From assembly GCA_002256345.1 (NCBI GenBank), contig NKIY01000010.1, positions 124,001 through 188,000 of the forward strand: a DNA stretch of 64,000 nt, given 5' to 3'. This stretch comes from Bradyrhizobiaceae bacterium PARB1. GTDB taxonomy: Bacteria; Pseudomonadota; Alphaproteobacteria; Rhizobiales; Xanthobacteraceae. Position numbers and translations under genes: made by a program. Shown one piece after another: positions 39,442 through 45,256 of this stretch (its first letter is position 1; every line of letters starts with the position of its first letter). The notes under the pieces were generated by a model. It searched no databases. It was not told the origin of the DNA and saw nothing but the letters and a program-made list of their open reading frames with translations.

Positions 39442-39708
39442 TTAAAGATACTTCGCGATTAGTTTGAACTCCTGCAGTTGATCTCGTCTGGTTGAGGCCG
39501 TGGGCTTCTGTGGTTGTTCCAAGCATTGGCTGATGTGATCGTGAATCAGAGCTTTCTTGGCATTCTCGATAGCACTCTCGACGGCTTGCATTTGTTGGGC
39601 GATCTGCAGGCAAGACTGCCCTTGTTCAATCATTTCAATGATCGCTTGTAGATGCCCGTCAGCGCGCTTGAGGCGCTTGATAATTGCGGGATGATTGTCC
39701 TTTGACAT
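39442..39708 (-). CDS. CsoR/RcnR-family metal-sensing repressor
   Basis: All-helical DUF156 repressor of 88 residues, the usual length. Cys33 (EQGQSCLQ), His58 and Cys62 (HDHISQC) have exactly the spacing of the Cu(I) ligands Cys36, His61 and Cys65 of M. tuberculosis CsoR. This points to copper(I) or a nickel-sensing variant and not to the formaldehyde sensor FrmR. A G/C-tract palindrome of the CsoR type lies directly upstream. No copper exporter is nearby; the genes downstream of the operator on the plus strand lead to an NRAMP-like transporter. Confidence 0.9.
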   Translation of the reverse strand: MSKDNHPAIIKRLKRADGHLQAIIEMIEQGQSCLQIAQQMQAVESAIENAKKALIHDHISQCLEQPQKPTASTRRDQLQEFKLIAKYL

Positions 39709-39717
39709 GTGATCTCC

Positions 39718-39735
39718 TATCCTCCCAAGAGGATA
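39718..39735. promoter_or_regulatory. Inverted repeat in the leader of the CsoR-type gene
   Basis: Perfect seven-base arms TATCCTC (39718-39724) and GAGGATA (39729-39735) around CCAA, 9 bases upstream of the start codon at 39708. On the minus strand it contains the gene's own GAGGATA purine-rich stretch. It could be a second repressor half-operator or a hairpin over the ribosome site. Confidence 0.5.
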
Positions 39736-39738
39736 GCA

Positions 39739-39760
39739 TATATCCCCCCTGGGGGATATA
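39739..39760. promoter_or_regulatory. CsoR/RcnR-type operator
   Basis: Ten-base arms TATATCCCCC (39739-39748) and GGGGGATATA (39751-39760) with a two-base centre CT. An A/T-flanked run of C then G is the established operator type of the DUF156 family. It stands 30 bases upstream of the repressor gene and could control transcription in both directions. Confidence 0.88.
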
Positions 39761-40060
39761 GAAAAACGCTTGACTCGGTTGTGGGGCAGGCGTACTGGCC
39801 AATCATTGTCTGGAACAGATCGTTCAAGACAGAACTTTCAAACTGAAACGACGAGCATTCACGAACAACAAATGGGCAGTACCACCATTGGCAACGCCAA
39901 CCCGGCGACGATGTTCGGGTTCGCGGTGCCGCAAAACATCAGGCCGCAAGGCATCAAGATCAATCGCGACGGCTATGGCCGCGTGAGGGTTGGTGGTCGC
40001 GACTAGCTGACCGCTTGCTGCTCACCGACCTGCCGCGCAAAGCGGACGTGGAGGTGAGCG

Positions 40061-40420
40061 ATGTTCACAAGACTCGCAAAATCCAGACTTGCAGGATTTC
40101 GGTTCATTCAGCCGCGGCAGATCATGCCGAGGTTGAGCGAGCTCGTGTTTTACAAAGACACTCTTTCCAATAACTCGCATTCCAATGACGACCTGCCGGA
40201 TTTTCGCCATCCGGTGGCAAAGGGCAAGCGTGGGTCTCCATCCCCTGCGCTTGCCTGTCATTGGTCTAATCGCAATGGCCGGCTCGAATGCTGTTGGACG
40301 ACAGAGAGCAGTGGCGACGTGCAAATCGACGATGTCGATGAACATGAGTATGCCCAAGGTGGCGTTCTGCGCCTTTCGTCGAAACGATCGCGTCGGTTCA
40401 TTCTAGCGCCGGCTGGATAA
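40061..40420 (+). CDS. Small protein of unknown function
   Basis: A 119-residue frame with a good ribosome site (GGAGGTGAGCG before the ATG at 40061). The centre reads LACHWSNRNGRLECCWTTES, a short Cys/Trp-rich segment resembling uncharacterised Rhizobiales proteins that I know only as hypothetical. No signal peptide or membrane span is apparent. A weaker frame (44 codons from ATG 39872) precedes it and has no ribosome site. It could be a passenger of the CsoR-controlled transcript. Confidence 0.5.
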   Translation: MFTRLAKSRLAGFRFIQPRQIMPRLSELVFYKDTLSNNSHSNDDLPDFRHPVAKGKRGSPSPALACHWSNRNGRLECCWTTESSGDVQIDDVDEHEYAQGGVLRLSSKRSRRFILAPAG

Positions 40421-40542
40421 GCAGAGGAATTGCAAATGGACGAAGGACCTAGTTGTCCCGCCGCCCACCTCTCCGGTGCTGCGACGGGAGTCCCCTTGGG
40501 AAACAGACACACTGATTTTTGTGAAGCCGTGATCCTGTCCGG

Positions 40543-40623
40543 TCGAGGTGTCGTGGGCGTCTAGTCCTCCGCTCACCTTGTGCCGGCGATCGTCGGCATC
40601 GAGGTGAACATCGGAGGCGGAAG
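40543..40623 (+). ncRNA. Riboswitch-like leader that can sequester a Shine-Dalgarno sequence
   Basis: CCTCCG (40566-40571) is perfectly complementary to CGGAGG (40612-40617), which contains the ribosome site of the next gene (ATG 40624). Inside, TCACCT (40573-40578) pairs with AGGTGA (40602-40607) and TGCCG (40581-40585) with CGGCA (40594-40598), giving about 17 pairs. The octamer TCGAGGTG occurs twice, at 40543-40550 and 40599-40606. The first copy could instead pair with CACCT and open the hairpin. Upstream sequence from about 40437 is also hairpin-rich. I recognise no known riboswitch class. Confidence 0.55.
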
Positions 40624-40986
40624 ATGGTCGACGTCAGACATCTGTCGAATCTCAAATTCTTTGATTTCTTCAATGGTGTCCGTCGAGGCGGATACTTAAC
40701 GGCGGGTCGTGCTCAGGTTCGCACCACGTTCAATCAAGACATGGCGGAGAGGCACGGCGTCGAGGCAACGCTGGTGTTCAATGCCTGCGGCGACATCACG
40801 ACGTTGGACGCGTTATGGGTTGAACTGTGGCGGTTCACATCGGCCTTTGGCTGGCGTGACGTTGGAATGCCACTCACCTACGGCGTCACCAAGGGCTCCA
40901 TACCAAGCGAAAATTGCGGCTGCCAAAGATCGCTCTCGGGGGCGTTGATTCACGCCTCCTTGGATGATGTGCGCATGAGCATTTAG
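40624..40986 (+). CDS. Unrecognised protein downstream of the structured leader
   Basis: A 120-residue frame starting with ATG 6 bases after GGAGG. The sequence begins VDVRHLSNLKFFDFFNGVRRG and contains AERHGVEATLVFNACGD. No domain, signal or membrane segment is recognised. The convincing ribosome site and its position under a switchable hairpin favour a real product, possibly a leader or regulatory protein for the NRAMP gene 200 bases on. It may equally be a decayed gene. Confidence 0.45.
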   Translation: MVDVRHLSNLKFFDFFNGVRRGGYLTAGRAQVRTTFNQDMAERHGVEATLVFNACGDITTLDALWVELWRFTSAFGWRDVGMPLTYGVTKGSIPSENCGCQRSLSGALIHASLDDVRMSI

Positions 40987-41000
40987 CGCCGTAGTCAAAT

Positions 41001-41025
41001 CACCAAATCCGTCATCGGATTGGTG
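41001..41025 (+). ncRNA. Hairpin in the NRAMP gene leader
   Basis: CACCA-A-ATCCG (41001-41011) pairs with CGGATTGGTG (41016-41025) around a TCAT loop: ten pairs with one bulged A. It begins 15 bases after the preceding stop, in the 200-base untranslated region before ATG 41187. No T-tract follows, so it is not a standard terminator. A smaller GGGT-ATG-ACCC hairpin lies at about 41084-41094. It could be part of a metal-responsive leader. Confidence 0.45.
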
Positions 41026-41186
41026 CTGCCCTGAGCATAGGCCGCCCAACACCTCGTGTCAGTCGAACGCGACTTGTTGCGCCAACGGGTATGACCCTCG
41101 TTCGCCTTTCTCTCAACTCATCAACGTCAGTTTCCCGCCAGAAGAGGCTTGGGAATTGGCTCGAACAATCACGTAGGAAATAGATC

Positions 41187-42878
41187 ATGGCCACTATCGA
41201 TAGTGCAGTTACACAAGCGGAAAAGCACGACGGTGCCGCTCCAGAAATTCATGCCGCTGTGCTGGATAAAGCTCATCTCGGCGACATTCATGGCGCCCTT
41301 GGCAGCATTGCCGAGGACGATGTCGCCCCGCGCGCGACGTTAGGAGCGCGATTTAAAACCCTGGCTGCAATCGTTGGTCCGGGATTGATCGTGATGGTTG
41401 GTGACAACGACGCTGGTGCTTTTGGGACCTACACTCAGGCTGGCCAGAACTACGGTACGACGCTGCTCTGGACGTTGATGCTGCTCATCCCGGTTCTTTA
41501 TGTAAACCAGGAAATGGTCGTGCGGCTCGGAGCGGTAACCGGCGTCGGCCATGCGCGGCTGATATTCGAACGCTTTGGCAAGTTCTGGGGTGCCTTCAGC
41601 GTTATCGACCTGTTTCTGCTCAACGCGCTGACGTTGGTGACGGAGTTCATCGGCATTAGCCTCGCGCTCAGTTATCTCGGGCTATCGCAGTTCTGGGGCG
41701 TTCTGCTGTCTGCCTTGATCGTCATGATTGCAGTAAGCACCGGTGACTTCCGGCGCTTCGAGCGTTTTGCGATCGGGCTGGTCGCCGGCAGCCTGCTTCT
41801 GGTGCCGATCATCCTGATGGTGCATCCACCGGTTGGCCAAATGGCTCACGATTTCTTCGTGCCGAAGATGCCTCCGGAAAGCAAACTGAGCGAGGTGATG
41901 CTGCTGATCATCGCTATCGTCGGTACCACCGTGGCTCCCTGGCAGCTGTTCTTCCAGCAGAGCTATATCGTCGACAAGAGAATTACGCCGCGCTTCATCC
42001 GCTACGAGCGTTGGGATCTATGCTTCGGTATCGTTCTGGTGATTCTCGGCGCCGTGGCGATGATGGGCTTCTGTGCTGCAATTTTCGCCGGGCAGCCGGA
42101 GTTCGGGAACTACACCGATGCACTCGGAACGGCGGTCGGGCTGGAAAAGTATGCTGGCAAATTGCCCGCTACCTTGTTCGCATTGGCGTTGCTCGATGCC
42201 AGCATCATCGGGGCGGCAGCGGTTTCGCTTGCCACGGCCTATGCGATCGGTGATGTATTTTCACTGAAGCACTCGCTGCATCGCAAGCCGCAGGATGCCA
42301 AAGGGTTTTACGGCATCTATTTCGGTTTGATCGTTTTGGCGGCAGTGCTGGTTCTGACGCCGGGTACCCCGTTGGGTCTCCTGACCAATGCGGTCCAGAC
42401 TCTCGCCGGGGTCCTGCTTCCGAGTGCAACGGTATTCCTGCTCTTGCTCTGCAACGACAAGGCGGTTCTCGGCCCTTGGATCAACTCGCGCCAGCTGAAT
42501 GTATTCACCGGTGCGGTTGTCGCGGCACTGGTGATGCTGTCCATCATCCTTACGGCATCCGTCTTGTTCCCGAATATGGACGAGCAATGGATCATCGGCA
42601 TTCTTGGCGGCGGTAGCCTGCTTGCGATTGTCGTCACGATCGGCGTTCGACTCATCGAGTCCTATCGTGCACCGGCGAAGCGATTCAGCCGAAGCATTGT
42701 GCGCAAGTCGGTACGACAGGATTTCGATACCTGGCGGATGCCGCCGCTCGATCAGTTGCCGCGGGCTCATCTCAGTATGCTCAGCCGAATCTGGATGGTC
42801 GTGTTGCGAGGTTATCTCGTCATCGCGGCCGGGCTGGTCTTGCTGCGCATCGTACAGCTTGTCACGACCGGCGTGTAA
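41187..42878 (+). CDS. NRAMP-related divalent metal transporter with altered metal site
   Basis: Inner-membrane protein of 563 residues with about 11 spans and a 60-residue N-terminal tail. The overall NRAMP fold is clear (FKTLAAIVGPGLIVMVGDNDAGAFGTYTQAGQ). However, the TM1 metal motif DPGN is replaced by DNDAG, and TM6 reads GTTVAPWQLFFQQSYIVDKR in place of the MPH form. The APWxxFFQQS type of TM6 recalls the NRAMP-related magnesium transporters, so magnesium or another hard ion is likelier than manganese (inference). It is downstream of the CsoR operator and leader elements, with a porin after it. Confidence 0.9.
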   Translation: MATIDSAVTQAEKHDGAAPEIHAAVLDKAHLGDIHGALGSIAEDDVAPRATLGARFKTLAAIVGPGLIVMVGDNDAGAFGTYTQAGQNYGTTLLWTLMLLIPVLYVNQEMVVRLGAVTGVGHARLIFERFGKFWGAFSVIDLFLLNALTLVTEFIGISLALSYLGLSQFWGVLLSALIVMIAVSTGDFRRFERFAIGLVAGSLLLVPIILMVHPPVGQMAHDFFVPKMPPESKLSEVMLLIIAIVGTTVAPWQLFFQQSYIVDKRITPRFIRYERWDLCFGIVLVILGAVAMMGFCAAIFAGQPEFGNYTDALGTAVGLEKYAGKLPATLFALALLDASIIGAAAVSLATAYAIGDVFSLKHSLHRKPQDAKGFYGIYFGLIVLAAVLVLTPGTPLGLLTNAVQTLAGVLLPSATVFLLLLCNDKAVLGPWINSRQLNVFTGAVVAALVMLSIILTASVLFPNMDEQWIIGILGGGSLLAIVVTIGVRLIESYRAPAKRFSRSIVRKSVRQDFDTWRMPPLDQLPRAHLSMLSRIWMVVLRGYLVIAAGLVLLRIVQLVTTGV

Positions 42879-43258: not shown

Positions 43259-45256
43259 ATGAAAAAGGTCTGTTCTGTTTTTGGCGGCGCCTGCGCTGCA
43301 TTGGCCGCAAGCTCGTTGGCAAGCGCTGCCGACTTGTCGAAAGAACTGTTGGTCAAGACTCCTGTCCGCGCCGTTTATGATTGGACCGGGTTCTATGTCG
43401 GCGGTCATTTCGGTTATGGCGACGGCAGCTTGGGTCCGAATACCAATCCGATTCTCGGACAGGCGGTGGTGTTTCCATCCACGATTACGGGTCTCATTGG
43501 AGGCTTTCAAGCGGGATACGATCTTCAGCTTTCGGATCGCGTCGTGATCGGCATGGAAGCCGATGTCTCGCTCGTGAGTCCCGTTGATACTACGAAACAC
43601 GCGCCCGGCGCATTCGACACCGCCATTGATTATGTGGGCACGGTGCGGGGGCGTATCGGATATGCTTTCGGCATGTTGATGCCTTACGCGACCGGGGGGC
43701 TCGCTTGGGGGCAGACCAAGGTGAATGTCTTCGCCGATGATGGCAGCGCTCTGTTCTCGAAACAACGCACGCATCTCGGCTGGACGGCGGGTGCCGGTGT
43801 TGAAATGGCGGTCGGCGGTAACTGGAGCGCGAAGCTGGAATATGACTACATCAATCTGGCGGGCCGATCATATGACCTCAGAGACGTCTCTCTCCCGAAC
43901 GTGCATGTTGATCCCAGCATGCACCTCGTCAAGGCCGGGCTGAATTACAGGCTGTGGAATACGCCATCGTGGTCGTCATCGAGGCCGTCCGTGAAAACGG
44001 AAATCATGCCAGAATCGGCCGACTGGAATATTCACGGCCAAACCACTTTCATCGGACAAGGCTATCCGCGGATTCGCTCGCCATATCAAGGCGCGAACAG
44101 TTTACCGGCGGGAGGCCAGGCTCGTGAAACATTGACGGCTGCTGCGTTTCTTGGTTGGCGGCTGTGGGACGGCGGTGAGTTCTATTTCAATCCGGAATTG
44201 GCGCAGGGCTTTGGCTTGAATGGCACGCTCGGACTGGCGGGCTTTCCGAACGGTGAGGCGCAGAAGGGCGGGGCGGAGTATCCGAAATTTCGTGCGCAGC
44301 GCTACTTCTTGCGCCAGACCTTCGGTCTTGGCGGCGAACAGGAAGAGGTTGCGGACGCCGCGCTGCAACTTGCCGGTAAGCGCGATATCAATCGTGTGAC
44401 GCTGACAATCGGCCGCTTTGCTGTTGGAGATTTCTTTGATGGAAATTCATATGCCAAGGATCCCCGTGCGGACTTTATGAATTGGGCGATTTGGTCAGCC
44501 GGCGCCTACGACTTCCCGGCAGATCTTCCCGGCTTCACACGCGGTGCGGTCATCGAACTAAATCATAAAGATTGGGCGTTGCGGACCGGTGTCTTCCAGG
44601 TTCCGGAAGAGCAAAACAGCGATGTTCTCGTCTTCAAGGACGGGGCAGGTGCGGTGGTCGAGCTGGAAGAACGCTACGCGATGTTTGGACAACCGGGTAA
44701 ACTCCGTTTGGGTGCGTTCGCCAATCGTGGCAAGACGGGGAACTACCGCAATGCGCTCGGGATTGTCGCTTCCGATCCTTCACTTGACATCAACAACGTG
44801 ATGGCAGGCTCTCGCGCAGAGCGCGTCAAATATGGCTTCTATGTCAATATGGAGCAGGCCATCACGAACAACGTCGGGATATTCGCTCGTGCCAGCTGGA
44901 ATGATGGCCAGACCGAAATCCTGTCTTTTACAGACATCGATCGAAGCATGTCTGGTGGCGTCTCAATCAAGGGCAGCGCTTGGGGGCGCCCCAGCGACAC
45001 TATTGGGATTGGCGGGGCGATCAATGGATTATCCAGCGCCAATCGGGATTTCCTGGCTGCGGGTGGAAACGGATTACTGATTGGCGATGGCCAGATGAAT
45101 TATCGGAGCGAGAAGATTGTCGAGGCTTACTATGCCTACAGTTTCAACGCGTGGAGCACGTTGACATTCGATTATCAGTTTGTTGCCAATCCTGCTTACA
45201 ACGCGGACCGGGGGCCTGCGTCGATTTTTGCAGCACGTGCGCATGCGGAGTTCTAA
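43259..45256 (+). CDS. Two-barrel outer-membrane protein: Omp25/31-like domain fused to a carbohydrate-porin (OprB-like) domain
   Basis: Outer-membrane protein of 665 residues. After a signal peptide (1-23, ASSLASA), residues about 40-235 form an Omp25/31-like barrel (YDWTGFYVGGHFGYG at its start, WSAKLEYDYINL, then HLVKAGLNYRLW). Residues about 255-665 resemble OprB-type porins (WNIHGQTTFIGQG, VTLTIGRFAVGDFFDGN) and end AARAHAEF with the terminal phenylalanine required for outer-membrane insertion. A 20-residue polar linker joins them. Placed after the metal transporter, it may let the cation or its ligand cross the outer membrane. Confidence 0.88.
   Translation: MKKVCSVFGGACAALAASSLASAADLSKELLVKTPVRAVYDWTGFYVGGHFGYGDGSLGPNTNPILGQAVVFPSTITGLIGGFQAGYDLQLSDRVVIGMEADVSLVSPVDTTKHAPGAFDTAIDYVGTVRGRIGYAFGMLMPYATGGLAWGQTKVNVFADDGSALFSKQRTHLGWTAGAGVEMAVGGNWSAKLEYDYINLAGRSYDLRDVSLPNVHVDPSMHLVKAGLNYRLWNTPSWSSSRPSVKTEIMPESADWNIHGQTTFIGQGYPRIRSPYQGANSLPAGGQARETLTAAAFLGWRLWDGGEFYFNPELAQGFGLNGTLGLAGFPNGEAQKGGAEYPKFRAQRYFLRQTFGLGGEQEEVADAALQLAGKRDINRVTLTIGRFAVGDFFDGNSYAKDPRADFMNWAIWSAGAYDFPADLPGFTRGAVIELNHKDWALRTGVFQVPEEQNSDVLVFKDGAGAVVELEERYAMFGQPGKLRLGAFANRGKTGNYRNALGIVASDPSLDINNVMAGSRAERVKYGFYVNMEQAITNNVGIFARASWNDGQTEILSFTDIDRSMSGGVSIKGSAWGRPSDTIGIGGAINGLSSANRDFLAAGGNGLLIGDGQMNYRSEKIVEAYYAYSFNAWSTLTFDYQFVANPAYNADRGPASIFAARAHAEF

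Follow-up and report, generated by a model that had tools for sequence, protein, structure and literature searches.

Within the window, that is, the whole 64,000-nucleotide stretch of DNA that was analysed, a gene for an NRMT-like transporter lies behind three leader ORFs and a hairpin over a Shine-Dalgarno (SD) sequence, and ahead of a porin gene. The features of the locus are as follows.

39442..39708, minus strand: divergent gene for a CsoR/FrmR-type repressor (PF02583, E 2e-20); comparable genes adjoin NRMT in loci from Bradyrhizobium
39718..39759, strand not assigned: candidate repressor operator, inverted repeats TATCCTCCCAAGAGGATA and ATATCCCCCCTGGGGGATAT, read by eye
39872..40006, plus strand: leader ORF1, MGSTTIGNANPATMFGF..., 44 aa
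40020..40059, plus strand: possible hairpin GCTCACC..GGTGAGC with conserved arms, covering the SD of ORF2
40061..40420, plus strand: leader ORF2, 119 aa, with a C.W...GRL.C.W core and no Pfam family
40436..40564, plus strand: leader ORF3, MDEGPSCPAAHLSGAATGVPLGNRHTDFCEAVILSGRGVVGV (MDEGPSCP...), 42 codons, AGAGGA before its ATG; putative Mg2+-sensing leader peptide
40456..40489, plus strand: stem A, marked by covariation, its base at ORF nucleotide 21-22 by alignment
40539..40558, plus strand: candidate anti-sequestor half (CCGGTCGAGGTG...), a mimic of the SD-side arm
40566..40617, plus strand: SD-sequestering hairpin, 5' arm from 40566, SD CGGAGG at 40612-40617
40624..40986, plus strand: ORF of 120 aa with the hidden SD
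41187..42878, plus strand: NRMT-like transporter of the NRAMP/SLC11 family (PF01566, E 2.8e-82)
43259..45256, plus strand: OMP/OprB-type porin, downstream of the transporter

The product of 41187..42878 is probably a Mg2+ importer. Its best PDB match is 7qia, the Mg2+ transporter EleNRMT (E 1.5e-46), followed by a match at E 5.2e-21, and the best match to an MntH has an E value of 2.1e-14. The binding site of NRMTs is described as differing by changes of Met to Ala, Ala to Thr, His to Trp, and Asn to Gly (PMC8806188); in an alignment read by eye, the transporter has Thr, Ala, and Trp as in NRMTs and Ala at the Asn position, which is Gly in EleNRMT (PMC8806188). A clostridial NrmT is described as transporting Mg2+ and as being under M-box control (PMC4072509).

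The ribosome binding site (RBS) hidden in the window belongs to the ORF that precedes the transporter, and because this orphan ORF ends 200 nt before the transporter, the latter would be reached by coupling or polarity only. The 120-aa ORF occupies the place of a PRA-PH/MazG-like gene found in two related loci (L143 and L124). At 1690-2262 of L143, a PRA-PH/MazG-like nucleotide pyrophosphohydrolase gene (PF01503, E 7.5e-12) lies between the hairpin and NRMT, and the ORFs at that place in L124, L044, and L045 look PRA-PH/MazG-like by eye. The first residues of the 120-aa ORF also resemble this gene by eye, tblastn giving no match, and a search for homologues returned only the ORF itself among 101 genomes and none in genome contigs or plasmids.

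Upstream, repeats resembling the candidate operator are also present in three related loci (L124, L127, and L053), and a possible -35 element is TTGACT at 39770. The paired inverted repeats lie in front of the CsoR/FrmR-type repressor (39442-39759), and the operon looks Mg2+-related; this repressor type is Cys-His-Cys-like in four of six rows compared by eye. In four Bradyrhizobium loci (L044 4006-4107, L045 4035-4120, L048 4517-4598, and L053 4471-4570), the 3' end of the csoR-like gene has a match to the Rhizobiales-2 sRNA (RF01723) on it or close by. Ten genomes of the same genus as the window's genome (G000) gave distant NRAMP matches only, the best having an E value of 1.6e-24 among the matches listed, and the operon was therefore possibly gained by transfer.

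Leader ORF3 and its relatives

ORF3 was absent from the earlier note on this DNA. Relatives were gathered with the transporter at 41187 as query, taking the best 80 loci from named genomes, among which at least 574 candidates encode a relative, together with stretches of other genomes. These loci were searched for leaders with GACGAAGGACCTAGT, allowing up to three changes, and for acidic or GPS ORFs, and a DNA pattern was run on 397 genomes of the order and 146 Bradyrhizobium genomes as a further source. A total of 27 leaders (25 distinct) before orthologous NRMT-like genes came from these best 80 loci, the other stretches, and the pattern searches: the window, L143, L124, L049, L127, L044-L048, L053, L059, L140, L141, L144-L148, L150-L152, L089, L096, L099, L105, and L122. 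They include leaders from Bradyrhizobium, Methylocapsa (L089), Beijerinckiaceae (L096), Ancalomicrobiaceae (L099), Rhizobiales (L105), and an unplaced member of the Proteobacteria (L122).

ORF3 is 35-42 codons long across the leaders, and its start is strongly conserved. Among the 25 distinct leaders, codon 4 is always Gly (GGA in 20, GGC in 5), codon 5 always Pro (CCT in 23, CCC and CCG in one each), and codon 3 always Glu or Asp, while codon 2 is Asp in 20, Asn in four, and Lys in one; codon 6 is Ser in 23, and in 23 codon 8 is a further Pro. Changes in codons 3-5 are synonymous or are swaps of Glu and Asp. Codons 2-6 could be held by the peptide, by the RNA, or by both.

Upstream of ORF3, ORF1 and ORF2 (39872-40420) form what reads as a second ORF-plus-hairpin unit, conserved ahead of ORF3. 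The ORF2 start motif and ORF1 are present upstream in 26 of the 27 leaders, ORF1 having been identified in a pattern search by its MGS start (LGS in L049) in all leaders except L089, where the sequence is masked with N. By our own reading, 15 of 27 leaders, including the window, have the CTCACC/GGTGAG pairing at the SD of ORF2 as their minimum-energy fold, and the rest have another fold. The gap between the stop of ORF2 and ORF3 measures 9-18 nt in 23 of 27 leaders and 92 nt in L127; ORF2 is shortened in L148 and L046, and an unrelated ORF takes its place in L089. A relative of ORF2 with 46% identity is carried by the Bradyrhizobium plasmid pBb1S5b (L013).

Pattern, DNA, and model searches delimited the spread of this leader type. 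The pattern DTGRAMGAVGGNCCNAGT matched 11 of the 397 order genomes, and two of these matches, in the window and in L130, are credible; the nine others were judged not to be, on their peptide, the sequence before the start, and the lack of an NRMT. It also matched 14 of the 146 Bradyrhizobium genomes. Eleven of these, with a transporter inside 3 kb, were taken, L144 has the same peptide with no transporter within that reach, and the matches in L138 and L142 were put down to chance. A DNA search with 40400-41186 in 296 genomes of the family matched 11: besides the window, G320 gave a true leader, and the other nine gave short pieces judged to be chance; this search is insensitive, having missed G181, which holds L124 and is by its handle in the set. 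Model R1, run on 240 genomes of the class, gave 13 places in 12 genomes at E <=0.01, of which only the window is convincing; seven of the 12 places outside the window were judged on inspection to be chance. No R1 match up to E 1 was present in six NRMT loci (L050, L051, L052, L055, L066, and L126). Further, in the NRMT loci of beta- and gammaproteobacteria no ORF3-type ORF was recognised and SD pairing was mostly weak, many of these rows having no SD start found by the script.

Other short ORFs were seen near NRMT genes. Two NRMT leaders (L054 5783 and L125) have MDHQPR[LS]PAA rather than MDEGPS and strong start hairpins (-40.5 and -35.8), acidic short ORFs occur in L068 (MDSHSSY) and L072 (MNDHSRW), and four loci from Burkholderia (L100, L103, L118, and L121) have MNDSDSCP (VNDSDSCP in L118) some 450 nt upstream.

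The same type of leader is found before genes of another kind. In L130, which is the same place as L153, a MEEGPSWTARR... ORF with a stem from nucleotide 21 is followed by TGTCTCCGT/ACGGAGACA pairing over the SD of an MgtE gene (PF01769, E 2.1e-33 in L153), and a MDEGPGCP ORF precedes MgtE in L157; a start-region hairpin follows the ORF in both L153 and L157. Among 30 MgtE loci of the family, with ORFs picked by eye, these two have the close peptide and six a relaxed one, namely MDDPSSR in L154-L156 and MPSDS or MPGES in L159-L161. The stability of the start hairpin in these eight leaders was matched by 0 to 15 of 200 shuffles, and the pairing of the SD region was reached by 1-16 of 200 shuffles in seven of them and by 68 in L161. 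Within the MgtE clade of L153, L158 has neither such an ORF nor a hairpin, and L183 has a strong hairpin without a recognised ORF. In the class at large, the script found no such ORF in 30 MgtE loci including L186 from the window's own genome, 10 of the 30 having no evaluable start. A second MgtE gene in the genome of L130 (L218; G659 C41:108324) has a MDDPSSR leader ORF, and two paralogues of one genome therefore have two leader types.

Related leader ORFs were also met behind NRMT genes. Model R1 finds MDEHPSRPAVAA... (the MDEHPSRP leader ORF) behind NRMT in Bradyrhizobium BTAi1 and BR13661 (L061 and L062; E 0.0013), and in L061 this ORF ends 48 nt before an OprB-type porin gene. Behind the Magnetospirillum NRMT, R1 reports MEDCPSPADG... 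(E 0.0016 in L057 and 0.17 in L060). An MgtC gene (PF02308, E 6.4e-37) lies about 0.5 kb beyond this ORF in L060, and none was found within 1.3 kb of it in L057.

Pairing within ORF3 and over the downstream start

Stem A lies within ORF3 and carries the clearest covariation. In 25 rows (24 distinct), 88.7% of the cells are paired and 9 of 14 pairs have changed on both sides. In a set of 21 rows, in which the MgtE leader L153 was added and five of the 25 rows were left out, 86.7% of the cells are paired, 11 of 14 pairs have double-sided changes, and 30 double-sided cells compare with 9.6 in shuffles. For both row sets none of 500 shuffles reached any of the measures, and sliding the partner strand by one to three columns lowered both the paired and the covariation measures. 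The mRNA enters the ribosome some 11-13 nt downstream of the codon in the P site, so that the base of stem A would be reached when Gly4 occupies the P site and Pro5 the A site.

Behind ORF3, which ends one base short of the hairpin arm at 40566, the pairing motifs named in the earlier note are all in place: CCTCCG at 40566 with CGGAGG at 40612, TCACCT at 40573 with AGGTGA at 40602, and TGCCG at 40581 with CGGCA at 40594. The octamer TCGAGGTG was likewise found at 40543, inside ORF3, and at 40599, with CACCT at 40574; by itself it is weak evidence because the plus strand of the 64-kb window holds four copies. Over the stretch that begins at the stop of ORF3 and runs 25 nt beyond the start codon, the SD GGAGG has a pairing probability of 0.99, a value reached in 4 of 100 shuffles of the part upstream of the SD, and the minimum free energy is -41.9, compared with a mean of -29.3 for the shuffles (z -4.1). 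The stability of the whole 240-nt region is ordinary (z -1.14; 25 of 200 shuffles fold as well). The evidence from this single sequence is moderate, and the weight rests on the homologues.

SD pairing is at least 0.75 in 26 of the 27 leaders, the exception being L105 (0.33), where the core is mostly unpaired. In 21 leaders the observed pairing was reached by at most 5 of 100 shuffles of the upstream part, and in the other six by more. With a frame of 63 nt upstream, pairing of at least 0.95 was found in 19 of 27 leaders versus 4 of 48 control starts, the controls being ORFs of at least 200 aa with ATG and SD, some of which may be NRMT genes. The ORF directly behind the hairpin is the transporter in seven leaders (L046, L047, L089, L096, L099, L105, and L122), and by position the hidden start is the transporter's own in L140, L141, L146, L150, and L151. 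The hairpins of different groups stand at the same place with different sequences, and by eye the arms in the window, L143, L124, and L049 include TCACC/GGTGA, TCGCC/GGCGA, and TCGCTC/GAGTGA; a MAFFT alignment of all SD hairpins (A2) was not structure-consistent and was left out of the counts. Homologous leaders, whose covariation had been named as a check on the proposed switch, show compensatory changes in the ORF-internal stem A; in the SD hairpin covariation is slight, one of 12 pairs being double-sided in 16 Bradyrhizobium rows.

As proposed, the two hairpins exclude one another in minimum-energy folds of growing transcripts. With the RNA ending at 40585 or 40598, CCGGTCGAGGTG pairs with CACCTTG..GCCGG, and from 40608 the SD-side hairpin is favoured; in stepwise folding of the window the anti-hairpin is the best structure until the 3' arm emerges. 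Across the leaders, the 3' part of ORF3 often resembles the SD arm, with TCGAGGTG in the window, GGCAGGAG in L099, and GCGGAG in Bradyrhizobium. The duplex energy of the anti-hairpin was matched by few of 200 shuffles in several leaders (5 in the window, 1 in L143, 2 in L099, 3 in L096, 5 in L146, and 8 in L045) and is average in L124 (105 of 200) and L145 (113 of 200). Many leaders have no advantage over their own shuffles, and five of the 25 (L127, L045, L048, L059, and L146) pair with a lower probability than their shuffles do on average. A Fisher combination over 12 representatives gave p values of 7e-4 for energy and 7e-5 for pairing (a zero count being entered as 1/200), which are optimistic because the leaders are related and the representatives were picked after the values were known. 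The anti-sequestor is thus only modestly supported by these folding models.

As had been noted, no known riboswitch class is recognised in the region. Rfam gave no riboswitch match in the window at the gathering level and, for 39700-41200 up to E 5, a single chance-level miRNA match. Six NRMT loci yielded only Rhizobiales-2 RNAs, in four of them, and no riboswitch, and eight MgtE loci yielded no match. Additionally, no conserved multi-branched fold was seen in the homologous leaders, in a comparison that leaves pseudoknots aside.

Models of regulation and their rivals

On balance we favour, with moderate confidence, a reading of the region as a translation-driven leader-ORF attenuator of a Mg2+ uptake operon. 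The sequence itself shows ORF3, stem A, the SD hairpin, and the mimic of the SD arm, that these are conserved, and that they are linked to Mg2+ transporter genes. Ribosomes would begin on the short ORF3. With ample Mg2+ they would translate all of it, covering the SD-arm mimic in its 3' part while RNA polymerase proceeds, and the downstream hairpin would shut over the SD and turn expression off. At low Mg2+, a ribosome joining the acidic start (Asp/Asn-Glu/Asp-Gly-Pro) with stem A at its leading edge would be unstable and would stall or drop off, leaving the 3' part of ORF3 free to pair with the emerging 5' arm of the hairpin; with that arm captured, the SD would be exposed and the transporter or the cistron preceding it would be made. 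Mg2+ as the signal, the destabilisation of the ribosome, and the direction of the switch are what we infer here, and the sign could be reversed, since a ribosome that reaches the end of ORF3 would unwind the 5' arm and could turn the gene on. Several observations count against the attenuator: four of the 25 leaders start with TTG, the acidic stretch of the peptide is short (two residues, or one in the NDGP and KDGP forms), and to these are added the six leaders whose SD pairing is reached by more than 5 of 100 shuffles, the mostly unpaired SD core of L105, the modest support for the anti-sequestor, the scarce covariation of the SD hairpin, the six NRMT loci with no R1 match, the MgtE loci L158 and L183, and the orphan ORF between the hidden SD and the transporter in the window.

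The position of the ORF3 stop, one base ahead of the hairpin, would equally suit plain translational coupling, in which the 5' arm is opened by ribosomes completing ORF3 at 40562-40564 and the ORF1-ORF2-ORF3 chain gates translation with no sensing. The conserved upstream ORFs and the short gap between ORF2 and ORF3 fit such a chain, but it leaves unexplained the acidic-Gly-Pro start, the fixed stem A, the mimic of the SD arm, and the link to Mg2+ genes, and we consider it unlikely. The earlier note had proposed a riboswitch, and of this the conserved regulatory hairpin pair over the SD is retained but not the aptamer, the best-conserved feature being the coding start of a short ORF. A riboswitch binding a metal or metabolite directly, with the start region of ORF3 and stem A as an aptamer that moves the downstream switch, would account for the near-invariant nucleotides in GACGAAGGACCTAGT, the covarying stem, and the mutually exclusive hairpins. 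The outcome of the Rfam searches speaks against it, as do the synonymous or Glu/Asp character of the substitutions in codons 3-5 and the six relaxed MgtE leaders, which have an acidic ORF and a start hairpin yet lack a GACGAAGGACCTAGT-type sequence; this account seems more doubtful still than coupling, though an RNA that senses Mg2+ directly keeps some probability.

As to the ligand, a metal ion had been guessed. The tie to metal transport holds, and Mg2+, rather than Cu, Mn, or Ni, is the most likely metal because the transporter resembles the Mg2+-transporting NRMT clade and an ORF3-type ORF precedes MgtE. The leader peptide might instead sense another signal (e.g., prolyl-tRNA, ATP, EF-P activity, or an antibiotic), with Mg2+ genes as indirect targets, and the Gly-Pro step and the Pro at codon 8 would suit a proline or EF-P readout. 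That the leader stands ahead of NRMT, of MgtE, and of a porin next to NRMT argues for Mg2+ itself, and this is the least probable of the accounts considered.

The M-box is an aptamer with an Rfam model, whereas neither the window nor the eight MgtE loci gave a riboswitch match in Rfam. The M-box (ykoK) Mg2+ riboswitch regulates the same kinds of transporter, NrmT and MgtE (PMC4072509), and an M-box accompanied by a leader ORF has been described in mycobacteria (PMC12810186). By analogy, the closest mechanisms would be those of Salmonella mgtQ, the nearest, and E. coli mgtL. In the mgtC-mgtB operon of Salmonella, the Asp2 and Glu5 codons of mgtQ are described as needed to free the hidden mgtB RBS via alternative stem-loops (PMC8092293). 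As with ORF3, a short ORF with early acidic codons precedes a Mg2+ transporter gene, and the stem-loop over the next RBS, its mutually exclusive anti-stem, and the translational control are counterparts of what is predicted for the leaders here (PMC8092293). In contrast, the mgtQ ORF, situated between mgtC and mgtB, is 8 codons long (PMC8092293), while the ORFs here extend over 35-42 codons up to the hairpin; the conserved Gly-Pro, the internal stem A, the NRMT and MgtE transporters, and the alphaproteobacterial hosts are further differences. In the mgtL and corL leaders of mgtA and corA, inefficient translation of the leader ORF at low Mg2+ is tied, as is proposed for ORF3, to expression of an importer, but through Rho-dependent transcription termination, whereas the output predicted here is SD occlusion (PMC11282234, PMC11552253); E. 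coli mgtL also resembles ORF3 in its acidic and Pro-containing start, EPDP (PMC11282234). The leader ORFs mgtM and mgtP of Salmonella mgtCBR provide a parallel for multiple short ORFs in one Mg2+ operon leader, although they encode other peptides and exert ATP- and tRNA-Pro-responsive transcriptional control (PMC8092293). In the titles and abstracts of the open-access literature, a scope that most subscription papers fall outside, no description of these alphaproteobacterial leaders was found.

A proposed family of leader peptides

A wider proposal, put forward tentatively, is that leader peptides of the form M-[D/N]-[D/E]-G-P-S make up a family of Mg2+ sensors in alphaproteobacteria that has not been described before, each peptide going with a stem met by the ribosome as it joins Gly4 to Pro5 and with an SD-hiding hairpin, and that the family may control separate parts of Mg2+ uptake (NRMT, MgtE, and the outer-membrane porin), sometimes in tandem with a second ORF-hairpin unit. 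Ribosome abortion at low Mg2+ has been described as a sensor in Escherichia coli and Salmonella. If the proposal is true, this kind of sensing would recur well beyond enterobacteria with a different peptide, and NRMT, a class of Mg2+ transporter for which the M-box is the described control, would gain a predicted regulator. The leaders would also offer a compact system for testing how the nascent sequence and a downstream stem act in destabilising the ribosome, and soil and root-nodule alphaproteobacteria would be using low-Mg2+ ribosome abortion with another peptide and other transporters.
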